30,481 nucleotides of DNA, from positions 1 through 30,481 of IMG/VR virus record IMGVR_UViG_3300037189_014276. One strand, 5' to 3'. Each line of letters begins with the position of its first letter. The stretch's first letter is position 1. This DNA comes from a virus. A model generated the notes under the pieces. It was given only the letters and a program-made list of their open reading frames with translations, had not been told where the DNA came from and made no database searches. Position numbers and translations under genes: made by a program. Below, in pieces: positions 66 through 3,544 of this stretch.

Positions 66-665
66 TCACTTGCTGAACCTCGACAGAGCGAAGCGAGCCT
101 CGCGCTCGAAGATGGCGGGCAGCTTGGTCTGGATCGCACGGATCACGGCGCTGTTGACGCGCCTGGTCGTGAACATCTGCGGCACGTCGATCGTGCGCAC
201 GGCATCGATCTGCTCGCCATGCTTGGTGCCGCCATACTGACTGCGACTGGCCATGGTCGTGCCCTCTACACGCCTGAACACCGTGCGGCCCTTGTTGCCG
301 ATGAAAGCGCCACTGATCACCTTGCGGCTGCCCATGCGCTTGATCTTCACGCTCACGCCCTTGGCCACCTGGCGCGCAGCGAAGGCGATGACGTTGGCCG
401 ATCGGCGCTTGCCGTTGCCACCGATCAGCTCGGCCTCGACGTTGAAGCGCCCGGCCTTGAAGCTGGCCTTGCGCACGCGCAGGCGCTCGCGCACATAGGT
501 GGCGGTGACGTTGAACTCCTGACGGATCGAGCGGCTCATGTCGACCTTGGCCCCGTCGATGGTCTTGTTCACGGTGCGCACCAGCACGGTGTTGCGCATG
601 TCGGCCTGCAGCTCGTTGAGCTTGCGCTGCACGTCGGCGAAGTTGGTGCTGATGCTCAGCTGCAT
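66..665 (-). CDS. Minor tail protein Z-like (tail completion)
   Basis: A 199-residue protein resembling lambda gpZ (Minor_tail_Z family), which completes the tail end that joins the head. Shared features are a basic N-terminal half rich in R and K (about 25-90), the segment VISGAFI near residue 117, a following FRRVEGT, and an IDVPQMF segment in the C-terminal third. The length is close to lambda gpZ (192 residues). Its start overlaps the end of the upstream small gene by 10 bases, so the two are probably co-translated. The position is odd: lambda Z lies between FII and U, but here those two genes are adjacent (22741-23022 and 22307-22738) and Z sits beyond the replication genes. Confidence 0.8.
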   Translation of the reverse strand: MQLSISTNFADVQRKLNELQADMRNTVLVRTVNKTIDGAKVDMSRSIRQEFNVTATYVRERLRVRKASFKAGRFNVEAELIGGNGKRRSANVIAFAARQVAKGVSVKIKRMGSRKVISGAFIGNKGRTVFRRVEGTTMASRSQYGGTKHGEQIDAVRTIDVPQMFTTRRVNSAVIRAIQTKLPAIFEREARFALSRFSK

Positions 666-895
666 GGTCGTGCCCCCACATCGATGCCGACGTTGTGCTC
701 GCCCTCGACCAGCCAGAGCCGGCCATGGTGGAAGCGTTGGCGCTTCAGCCAGGCCTGGGCCGCGGCGTCGCCCTGTTCGGCCTGCAGGCGCTTGAATTCG
801 CGGCGGGCCTGCTGGGATGAAGCCAGGGCGCCGTCGACGAGCTCAGCGCCGCATTTCGCCCGCAGCTCGGCCATCAGCTCTGCAGCCAGCGGCAT
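656..895 (-). CDS. Small unknown protein coupled to the Z-like gene
   Basis: A 79-residue protein of unknown function. I chose the ATG at 895 because AAGGAG (about 902-907) lies a good distance upstream; a longer start at 922 would put that site inside the gene. The protein looks helical and charged, with a QQARREFKRLQAE stretch near the middle and a short basic/aromatic stretch (KRQRFHHGRLW) near the C-terminus. The stop lies inside the start region of the Z-like gene, so both are likely translated together. It is the first gene after the iteron array and may open the late operon. No membrane segment or catalytic motif is visible. Confidence 0.65.
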   Translation of the reverse strand: MPLAAELMAELRAKCGAELVDGALASSQQARREFKRLQAEQGDAAAQAWLKRQRFHHGRLWLVEGEHNVGIDVGARPCS

Positions 896-937
896 CAACA
901 CCGCTCCTTTTTTTTCATGCATGGGTGGTGATGTGTA

Positions 938-1165
938 GTTGCGCGAGTTGCGCGAGCGGTTGCGCGTGAATCGCCCGTAGAGACCCGCAGTTGCGTGAGT
1001 TGCGCGAGTTGCGGGTGGTTGCTGAATCGGAGCAGAAGTGCACATGCAGCGGCCCTCGTGCGCGCGCACATGTGGGGCGGGAAACCTCGCGCAACTCGCG
1101 CAACTCACGCAACTGCGCGGGTTTGCGGGGAGGTGTCGCGCAACTGGTCGCGCAACTCGCGCAAC
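938..1165. repeat. Mirror-symmetric 12-copy iteron array, candidate replication origin
   Basis: Twelve 9-bp units of consensus GTTGCGYGA, eight of them exactly GTTGCGCGA. Six point right (938, 947, 959, 990, 999, 1008) and six point left (starts at 1087, 1096, 1105, 1136, 1148, 1157). Every left unit has a right unit at the exact mirror position about 1051.5. This includes two 3-base gaps and two 22-base gaps. The central 70 bases contain the palindrome GTGCGCGCGCAC (1058-1069) inside an 18-base alternating pyrimidine-purine run (1057-1074). The array fills the non-coding gap next to the helicase and primase genes, the usual place for an iteron origin. A partition site or a regulator-binding late promoter are alternatives. 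Confidence 0.7.
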
Positions 1166-1182: not shown

Positions 1183-2595
1183 TCACGGCGGCGCACCTCC
1201 ATCGGCCTGCTGCTCGCCGAAGCGGCGCAGCGCGTCCTCAAACGCCTCGATCGCCTCGCGTGCCCACTGGCCCTTGCCCACGCCATCGGGCGGGCCGGCA
1301 TCGCCGTGCACCCACACGCGCAGCCAGCTCTTGCCGTTGACCTCGGTGTCGAGCTTCACCGCATCGCCGCGCAGCTTGCCGCGGCCGGCCTTCTCCACGC
1401 CCTTCGAGAACGTGATCTGGTTGGGGATGAATCGCTCGCCGGTCTGCGCGCACCATCGTCGGAAAGCGCGGAACAGCTGTTCGGTGCTACATACCCAGCG
1501 AGGGAGAGGGAGATAACCTTCGGACCACTCACGCACAAACCGCTCGTGAGGCTTGAGGCCCAGCGCGATCAGGTCGGCCTTCGCCGCGGTCATCGGCGGG
1601 ATCTCGAACTCGTTGAACTCGAGCATCGGCAGCGACAGCAGGTAGGCGTAGAACGCCTCGGTGCCGCCGTTGGCCATGCACCTGGCGACGCGGGTGTAGA
1701 GGTCGTCCTCGCGCCTGGGCGGGGTGTAGACCACGAAGTAGCGCCGATCGCCGGGCTCGAGGGCCAGCGGCTGCATGTCGTTGCTGAGGAACACCACGTT
1801 GACGTGGTTCGCCTCTGTGCGCAACGGCAACATCTTGGCGTTGATCTGGATCGTCTCGCCGGTGATGAAGGCCTTGAGCTTGTTTTTCTGGTGATACAGC
1901 TCGGCCTTGGCCACCACCTCGTCGCCGATCAGGAACAGCTTCTGGCTGGCCCAATCGTTGAACTTGTCCTCGAGCTGGTCCTGGCCGACGACCAGCGCAT
2001 AGCTGCCGTAGATCTTGGCCACGATCTCGAACAGCAGGTTCTTGCCCGCGCCCTGCGGGCCGTGGAAGACCATGGCGCTGCGCATCTTCACGCCAGGCCG
2101 CTGCAGCGGCAGCGCCAGCCAGCGCAGCGCCCAGGCGCAAACCTTGGCGCAACCTTCGGGCGTGTCGGCGCTTTCGGCGCACAGGTGCTGCAGCAGCTCG
2201 AGGATCGGGGCAAAGTCGCCCTTGCGCGGCTGCATCGCCAGGCCATCGAACAGATTGATCGCCGGCGGCTCGATCTCGCGGCCGGGCTCGAACATCAGCT
2301 CCTCGGCCAGGCACATGCGGCGGTGTGGTGAATTGAGCCAGCCCTTCACCGGATCCGTGCCGAAGCGCGCCCGCATCGCCCGAAGAGTGACCACCCGGCG
2401 CGTGGCCGAGTCCCACGCCGTCTCCGTCGGGTAGATCAGCGTGAAGCACTCCATCAGCGCGCTGTAGCTGCCCAGGTCGACCGGCTTCGGCCTGCGCTTT
2501 TTGCGGGCCCCTTCCCCCGTGGGGGGCGGGGTCGCCCCACCGTCAGAGGGTGGCTGGTAGTCGCTCATCGGAATGACGTTGTCTTCAGGCTGCAT
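1183..2595 (-). CDS. Replicative helicase, DUF5906 type (primase-helicase module)
   Basis: A 470-residue NTPase of the phage DUF5906 / D5-like helicase group, expected to unwind DNA at the phage origin. Visible motifs are Walker A GPQGAGKN (179-186), Walker B FLIGDE (221-226), a sensor-like VVFLSND (about 267-273) and a PGDRRYF segment with a candidate arginine finger (about 281-287). The first 40 residues are low-complexity and basic. It lacks a Toprim domain, which the adjacent upstream gene supplies, so the two proteins probably act as a split primase-helicase. The start at 2595 overlaps the primase end by 11 bases; an alternative ATG lies 27 bases downstream. The iteron array follows the stop codon. 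Confidence 0.85.
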   Translation of the reverse strand: MQPEDNVIPMSDYQPPSDGGATPPPTGEGARKKRRPKPVDLGSYSALMECFTLIYPTETAWDSATRRVVTLRAMRARFGTDPVKGWLNSPHRRMCLAEELMFEPGREIEPPAINLFDGLAMQPRKGDFAPILELLQHLCAESADTPEGCAKVCAWALRWLALPLQRPGVKMRSAMVFHGPQGAGKNLLFEIVAKIYGSYALVVGQDQLEDKFNDWASQKLFLIGDEVVAKAELYHQKNKLKAFITGETIQINAKMLPLRTEANHVNVVFLSNDMQPLALEPGDRRYFVVYTPPRREDDLYTRVARCMANGGTEAFYAYLLSLPMLEFNEFEIPPMTAAKADLIALGLKPHERFVREWSEGYLPLPRWVCSTEQLFRAFRRWCAQTGERFIPNQITFSKGVEKAGRGKLRGDAVKLDTEVNGKSWLRVWVHGDAGPPDGVGKGQWAREAIEAFEDALRRFGEQQADGGAPP

Positions 2596-3544
2596 TCAGG
2601 ATTTCCGAACCCAGCGCAGGCAGCACATGCCGAAGCTGGCGTTGCACCACGTTGAGCCCGAAGCGCACGTGGAGGTCGTTGAAGTCGGTGTCCTTCGCGC
2701 CGCGCATCTGAGGCAGGAACACCGGGTAGGTGTAGGCGCATCGGTCGACGGCGCGGCTCGCCTTGTGCGCCTTCTCGCGGCCAGGGTTGCCGGGCGTTCG
2801 GTAGTCGTCGTCGGCGCAGATCAGCAGGCGGCTGCGCGGGTACAGCGTGCGCAGCAGCTCGCACACCGGCAGCAGGTTGCCGGCATCGAGCGCCACGAAC
2901 ACCGGCAGGCGCTTGCCCACCGCCATGCGCAGCGTGAGGCCGGTGGCGTAGCCCTCGCACACCAGCACCGGCTCGCCAACCTGCACCAGGCCGAGGCGCA
3001 GGCAGACGCCCGGCTTCTGCAGGCCCTTCGTGAATCGCTTGCTGCCGTCTACGAAGATCTGCTGCACAGCCCGCAGCGCGTCCTCGCGCGGCAGGTCGTA
3101 GCGCAGCAGCGGGATCACGATCGATCCATCGGGCAGGTAGCGGCAGGCCTCGGCGTCGACGCCCTTGCGGCGCAGGTAGTCGCTCGAACCGGTGCGCGAG
3201 GCCGCAGCCCACAGCTCGCCGGCCGTCATGGCCGCACGGGCAGCCGCAGCAGCTCGAGCCCGCGCATCGGCATCGGCCTGCGCCTGGCGCTTGGCCTGCA
3301 GCTCGGCACGCTCGGCATCGTTGATGCCCTGCCAGTCGACCTCGACCTTGTACTTCTCGCCCGTCTTCCAGCTGCCGAAGCTGCCCAGCACGATGTACTG
3401 GCCGCTGTCGGTGCGCTCCTCGCGCAGGTGATACCAGTGCGCCTTTTTGTCGCCGAAGCGCTGCACACCGCCGAACTTCAGCGCCTTCTCAGGCGCGCCC
3501 AGGCCGGCCTGCATCATTTGGTGCACGATGTCTTGCGGTGTCAT
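2585..3544 (-). CDS. Toprim-domain phage primase
   Basis: A 319-residue protein with a Toprim domain in the C-terminal half: VCEGYATG with glutamate 197, LICADDD (241-247), and DTDFNDL (about 285-291). These carry the acidic residues that bind metal in primases. Toprim primases make RNA primers for phage DNA replication. No CxxC or CHC2 zinc finger is visible in the N-terminal part, so template recognition may use another element or partner. Residues about 78-106 are an Ala/Arg/Gln-rich helical linker. The start overlaps the upstream small gene by 4 bases (ATGA) and the end overlaps the helicase gene. Confidence 0.85.
   Translation of the reverse strand: MTPQDIVHQMMQAGLGAPEKALKFGGVQRFGDKKAHWYHLREERTDSGQYIVLGSFGSWKTGEKYKVEVDWQGINDAERAELQAKRQAQADADARARAAAAARAAMTAGELWAAASRTGSSDYLRRKGVDAEACRYLPDGSIVIPLLRYDLPREDALRAVQQIFVDGSKRFTKGLQKPGVCLRLGLVQVGEPVLVCEGYATGLTLRMAVGKRLPVFVALDAGNLLPVCELLRTLYPRSRLLICADDDYRTPGNPGREKAHKASRAVDRCAYTYPVFLPQMRGAKDTDFNDLHVRFGLNVVQRQLRHVLPALGSEILNAA

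Follow-up and report, generated by a model that had tools for sequence, protein, structure and literature searches.

The 228-bp block directly 3' of the helicase gene of a temperate tailed phage, made up of twelve short repeats in two inward-pointing sets, is very probably a replication origin, because in most relatives its layout is kept while the repeat itself is swapped together with the DNA-binding domain of the helicase. Taken as a whole, with helicase loading included, an origin of phage replication is the best explanation of this block, and we hold it with good confidence. The window analysed is the entire IMG/VR record IMGVR_UViG_3300037189_014276 (30,481 bp), which carries integrase, portal, terminase and tail genes.

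A two-sided iteron array next to the helicase gene

The features of the locus are collected in Table 1. The array lies between the stop codon of the helicase gene, 17 bp away, and a short ORF that gave no match in Pfam or PHROG. It thus adjoins the primase-helicase genes, as the first-pass annotation had it, with the Toprim_3 primase gene overlapping that of the helicase. The DUF5906 domain of the helicase scored 72.4 bits (curated cut-off 27.6) and structural matches identify a D5-type fold. Spurious ORFs overlie the array. Its DNA gave no direct DNA similarity to known phages.

Table 1. Features of the array and of the neighbouring genes (window coordinates).
Feature	Position	Strand	Remarks
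Iteron 1	938..946	+	GTTGCGCGA, exact
Iteron 2	947..955	+	GTTGCGCGA, exact
3-bp gap	956-958		mirrored at 1145-1147
Iteron 3	959..967	+	GTTGCGCGT, 1 mismatch
22-bp gap	968-989		mirrored at 1114-1135
Iteron 4	990..998	+	GTTGCGTGA, variant
Iteron 5	999..1007	+	GTTGCGCGA, exact
Iteron 6	1008..1016	+	GTTGCGGGT, 2 mismatches
Centre	1017..1086	.	70 bp, separating both iteron sets
Alternating purine-pyrimidine run	1057..1074	.	18 bp, Z-prone, CGTGCGCGCGCACATGTG; same kind of element in 53/57 lineages
Iteron 7	1087..1095	-	GTTGCGCGA, exact
Iteron 8	1096..1104	-	GTTGCGCGA, exact
Iteron 9	1105..1113	-	GTTGCGTGA, variant, twin of 990
22-bp gap	1114-1135		mirrored at 968-989
Iteron 10	1136..1144	-	GTTGCGCGA, exact
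3-bp gap	1145-1147		mirrored at 956-958
Iteron 11	1148..1156	-	GTTGCGCGA, exact
Iteron 12	1157..1165	-	GTTGCGCGA, exact
87-aa ORF	656-919		between array and Minor_tail_Z gene
SF3/D5-like helicase (DUF5906, VapE-like)	1183..2595	-	470 aa; proposed origin-binding, self-loading initiator
C-terminal winged-helix codons	1291..1485	-	helicase residues 371-435; predicted iteron reader
Toprim_3 primase	2585..3544	-	its end overlaps helicase start; proposed primer at opened origin

The first-pass annotation had described twelve copies of a 9-bp unit, GTTGCGYGA, placed at exact mirror positions about 1051.5. Twelve units are indeed present, but only ten fit that consensus; those at 959 and 1008 deviate at the unit ends, whereas their mirror partners are perfect. 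The mirror placement itself stands, since every unit maps to a partner (six units on each strand), and so do the paired gaps of three and 22 bases and the matching variants at 990 and 1105. Complementarity about 1051.5 is 65%, compared with 18-37% at neighbouring centres. On a two-sided inverted-repeat measure the array scores 25; the highest values were 10 among 400 dinucleotide shuffles and 12 among 295 further windows from the record. The array is therefore real and far beyond chance.

Relatives retain the array at the helicase 3' end

We retrieved 125 loci, this phage included, from bacterial genomes and viral contigs by means of the helicase protein. The 430 bp after each helicase stop was then searched for any unit present in forward orientation on the left side and in reverse orientation on the other, no repeat sequence being presupposed. 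A score of at least 16 was reached in 111 of the 125 loci but in none of 2500 dinucleotide shuffles and no in-gene window. The loci share ancestry, an effect that clustering and permutations lessen without removing. Clustering at 80% identity left 72 non-redundant lineages, 61 scoring at least 16 and 63 at least 14. The first-pass annotation had proposed such a search among phages with DUF5906 helicases and held that loss of the array in close relatives would speak against an origin; the array was kept, in 61 of 72 lineages. Nine lineages scored below 14, some of them cut by contig ends and one with a displaced array (locus L080, where an array of the same type lies ∼ 564-822 bp past the helicase stop, a displacement of ∼ 560 bp).

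Among named phages, Stenotrophomonas phage S1 has a clear 7+6 array. An annotated gene of that phage, gp2, overlies the iterons (L132, 2454-2804), a situation that the spurious ORFs over 938-1165 resemble; because the 9-bp repeats hold the frame open, gp2 is probably not a gene. Weaker arrays (scores 11-14) occupy the expected place in Halomonas H4907, Pseudomonas Turba, PG1 and KT1, and Microcystis MJing1. No array above background was found at the expected spot in Moraxella Mcat7, nor next to the distant DUF5906 helicases of Pamexvirus phiH1, Stenotrophomonas A1432, chi-like iEPS5, Vibrio VP5 and K294, Rhizobium Y52 and ctUtU524.

The association was also recovered in the opposite direction. 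When dimers of one common unit, TGTGCAGGG, were picked from viral contigs without reference to genes, 74 of 119 lay 3' of a DUF5906-type helicase. The unit of this phage, used as a dimer in the same way, occurred in 13 other viral contigs, all GC-rich and none with it beside such a helicase. Several contigs carry arrays and no helicase: two are truncated at contig ends (L192 and L202), and four contain what resemble coding or GC repeats (L207, L248, L241 and L276). On a further contig a two-sided GTGGAGGG array with an alternating centre (L232, 6954-7211) has no helicase-profile match nearby and possibly belongs to another type of initiator.

Here and in Stenotrophomonas phage S1 the array adjoins morphogenesis and terminase genes, as might be expected if it were a packaging site (cos or pac) whose repeats bind the small terminase and border the late genes. 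In Turba, PG1 and Halomonas H4907, however, it remains at the helicase 3' end with the terminase 2-3 kb off, and the unit sequence covaries with the winged helix of the helicase (see below). Given that the array keeps to the helicase where kilobases separate it from the terminase, we regard a role in packaging as very improbable.

Layout is more stable than unit sequence

The repeat unit varies by lineage (GTTRCGCG, TGTGCRGG, TTATTACG, CACTACGG, AACCACGG, CGCACG and others), to the extent that 64 representatives yielded 63 distinct consensus 12-mers. The layout is much more stable, with the units on both sides pointing to the centre, and the same set of unit positions (0, 9, 21, 33, 65, 74) recurs with unrelated units. 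Six units per side is the mode (left side in 38 of 63 arrays, right side in 24 of 63) and the median total is 12. The number per side ranges from 3 to 9, counts that depend on the scoring threshold. A wrong-way unit is present in 19 of the 63 arrays and absent from the other 44. With this range and these wrong-way units, one iteron per helicase subunit describes the modal pattern and is not a rule. Within a side the units are spaced with a period of ∼ 10.7 bp (amplitude 0.42, null maximum 0.13), which places the units on one face of the helix.

The first-pass annotation had taken perfect mirror symmetry to be the remarkable property of the array. That emphasis was misplaced: among the 64 representatives exact mirror spacing occurs in this phage alone, and what is conserved is a pair of inward-pointing sets of about six units. 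Mirror matching within loci averaged 3.98 sites, barely above the 3.38 of a swap control, so exact mirror spacing is not general.

The symmetry bears on a different kind of origin, in which the inverted repeat would extrude a hairpin whose structure is what is recognized. Plasmid pRN1 and Bordetella phage BIP-1 have been suggested to use stem-loop origins (PMC4234260), pRN1 requires a stem-loop downstream of its rep gene, and the arms of the present array (938-1020 and 1083-1165) are 82% complementary. In the relatives, by contrast, median mirror complementarity is 0.45 (0.67 here), and unit, orientation and phasing persist although left and right layouts usually differ, which leaves no long stem possible. 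BPP-1, which is nearly identical to BIP-1, lacks an array of this kind, and by BLASTP its primase-helicase shows no detectable relationship. We therefore rejected the hairpin as a common feature, the relatives having no conserved long stem-loop of the pRN1 type, and with the stem not conserved a hairpin origin seems to us most unlikely.

Repeat sequence follows the winged helix of the helicase

An AlphaFold2 model of the helicase (64 sequences, pLDDT 88.6) places a helix-helix-hairpin domain (residues 371-430) after a D5/SF3-type AAA+ core. Its structural matches were the NrS-1 primase-polymerase (Z 26.9), the D5/E5 hexameric helicases (Z ∼ 16) and SaPI5 PriRep1. Across lineages, distance between iterons correlates with distance between winged helices (r 0.62). 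The correlation persists when the core is controlled for (partial r 0.50, reached in 0 of 2000 permutations), whereas that between iterons and core vanishes given the winged helix (partial r 0.02). One pair of loci is instructive: the cores of L098 and L110 are 91% identical and their winged helices only 45%, and the units are AACTTACG and AACCACGG in nearly the same layout. On the tree of the core we count at least 16 changes of unit class.

By this covariation the likely reader of the iterons is the helicase itself, and the proposed binding by its C-terminal domain gains support. It is highly likely, in our judgement, that the origin is bound by the phage's own helicase. Residues 70-99, outside the winged helix, also covary with the iterons (partial r 0.48 and 0.32) and might contact DNA as well. 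The link between origin and DUF5906 helicase made in the first-pass annotation is thus strongly supported, by the relatives, by the winged-helix covariation and by the likeness to the origins of phage-inducible islands (PICI/SaPI) described below.

The same repeats could in principle form an operator or terminator array through which a regulator controls early or late transcription, with no part in replication initiation. The array does have an early gene on one side and the following downstream gene on the other, and initiators that bind iterons often act as regulators too. Yet the protein that covaries with the repeats is the helicase, the array lies 3' of the gene, and neither the alternating core nor the 6+6 phasing would be expected of an operator. 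The PICI counterpart, moreover, works as an origin (PMC6092414). A purely regulatory array accordingly has very little probability.

An alternating, Z-prone centre in place of an AT-rich zone

The first-pass annotation had noted that the centre holds a Z-DNA-prone run and a palindrome and is not AT-rich. Both observations were borne out, and the alternating run proved to be a conserved hallmark of the relatives. In this phage it is the longest alternating run of the 30.5-kb record and contains a 12-bp palindrome, GTGCGCGCGCAC. The AT fraction of the centre is 0.36 (0.34 for the record), and its best 20-bp AT stretch ranks at the 56th percentile within the phage's genome. Over the lineages the mean AT percentile is 0.61 (0.56 here), and an AT-rich opening zone was rejected as a common feature.

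Between the inner units, the centres measure 60-100 bp across lineages. An alternating run of at least 12 bp is present in 53 of the 57 lineages with a definable centre (median 18); the corresponding figures are 1.4% for shuffles and 1.7% for windows taken from other parts of these loci. Against dinucleotide shuffles of the centres themselves, mean run length is 18.9 versus 11.0, and 37 centres have a run of at least 16 bp versus at most 12. The runs are equally frequent in lineages whose unit does not alternate, and spacers between units of one side seldom contain them (4%, compared with 37% of centre pieces of equal length). In a motif fitted to the centres, several positions accept C or T, or A or G, almost freely, so that descriptively it is alternation and not sequence that is conserved; the motif was trained on these same centres and, being circular as a test, describes the alternation only.

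Z-DNA is a natural reading of the alternating core, which we infer to be a Z-DNA-prone element. Whether this property is what matters is less clear-cut. A conformational role for the core is plausible, at somewhat less than an even chance. The run could instead be bound by a protein of the host or of the phage within an otherwise identical origin, which we consider a possible but less favoured account. Some centres contain a recognizable inverted pair, TATACGCGCGAG...CTCGCGCGTATA (L014 and L075), as such a site might; the property conserved across lineages, on the other hand, is the alternation (the motif having been trained on the same sequences). Our search of open-licence papers found no description of an iteron origin with a Z-prone core.

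Relation to known origins

The nearest known kind is the SaPI/PICI origin. PICI origins lie 3' of rep, with an AT-rich region between two sets of iterons; their iterons vary between elements, as do those of SaPIs, and deletion of the origin lowers replication (PMC6092414). SaPI Rep helicases recognize the origin directly downstream of their own gene via the C-terminal domain and appear to bind there as two hexamers (PMC7581432). The present locus shares with EcCICFT073, SaPIbov1 and SaPI5 an origin directly 3' of a D5/DUF5906-type helicase (Rep or Pri-Rep) with two sets of short iterons.

When the same tool was applied to the EcCICFT073 origin (E. coli CFT073; L285, 13997-14284), this proved to be an inverted two-sided TGTCTACC array 3' of a D5_N/DUF5906 helicase. 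Its unit spacings are similar to those of the phage arrays, with 5+4 main units and one wrong-way unit per side. Phages L075, L082 and L083 also have one wrong-way unit per side. The EcCICFT073 centre, however, spans 31 bp (inner units, start to start) with a longest alternating run of 6, whereas the phage centres are alternating and 60-100 bp long. The two helicases gave no significant similarity by BLASTP. PICIs and SaPIs are satellites, whereas the arrays described here belong to full-size phages with a Toprim primase that is either separate or fused. This phage has its own portal, terminase, tail and integrase genes, and lacks an AT-rich region between the sets. The EcCICFT073 array makes the kind of origin a known one; what is new is a class carried by phages, in which the centre is long and alternating and the modal count is 6+6.

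Phage P4 shares the Toprim primase and DUF5906 helicase combination (alpha), 8-bp type I repeats and a crr 3' of the alpha gene. In P4 the repeats face both ways, within ori as well as within two 120-bp direct repeats, and ori is a separate element > 2 kb away. There is no alternating core (longest run 7-8) and the two-sided score is only 6-9. Our array differs from a P4-type replicon (GGTGAACA-like type I repeats, separate ori and crr) in its unit and in being a single two-sided locus. The putative SCCmec Cch2 origin resembles it in that the C-terminal domain of the helicase binds short direct repeats just downstream of the gene; Cch2, too, has been discussed as two hexamers (PMC7581432). That origin has three 5-nt iterons only, deletion of its inverted repeats left binding unaffected, and its priming enzyme is a different one, CCPol-MP.

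The best structural matches to the helicase are the NrS-1 primase-polymerase and poxvirus D5/E5, for which we know of no comparable two-sided iteron origin. E5 has been solved as a head-to-head double hexamer (9im3).

A model for initiation and its implications

We propose that the C-terminal winged helix of the DUF5906 helicase would bind the 9-bp iterons, one subunit per iteron. On either side, the six iterons that point inward at close to whole-turn spacing may then nucleate one hexamer, the two hexamers being opposite in orientation. Both rings would act on the centre, where a torsionally labile, Z-prone core could aid opening without a special AT-rich zone. The adjacent Toprim primase would prime, and two forks would depart in opposite directions.

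The suggestion in the first-pass annotation that the array loads two helicase complexes for bidirectional replication fits this anatomy. Judged separately, assembly of two hexamers on the 6+6 sites is slightly favoured, and a bidirectional start is evenly balanced. Only tentatively do we extend the model to a widespread class of phage origins, in which twelve phased iterons would template two opposed hexamers (one winged helix per iteron) and opening would occur at an alternating purine-pyrimidine site that acts by its conformation (a B-Z transition), in place of an AT-rich unwinding element.

The same basic plan as that of PICI-type origins is now seen in dozens of full-size phage lineages, and it provides a practical rule for locating origins in such prophages. 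The lineage set constitutes a collection of natural helicase/origin pairs with swapped specificity. The modal 6+6 count can be used to test opposed-pair assembly of self-loading hexameric helicases, and the conserved Z-prone core offers a direct way of testing whether alternative DNA structure contributes to origin opening.
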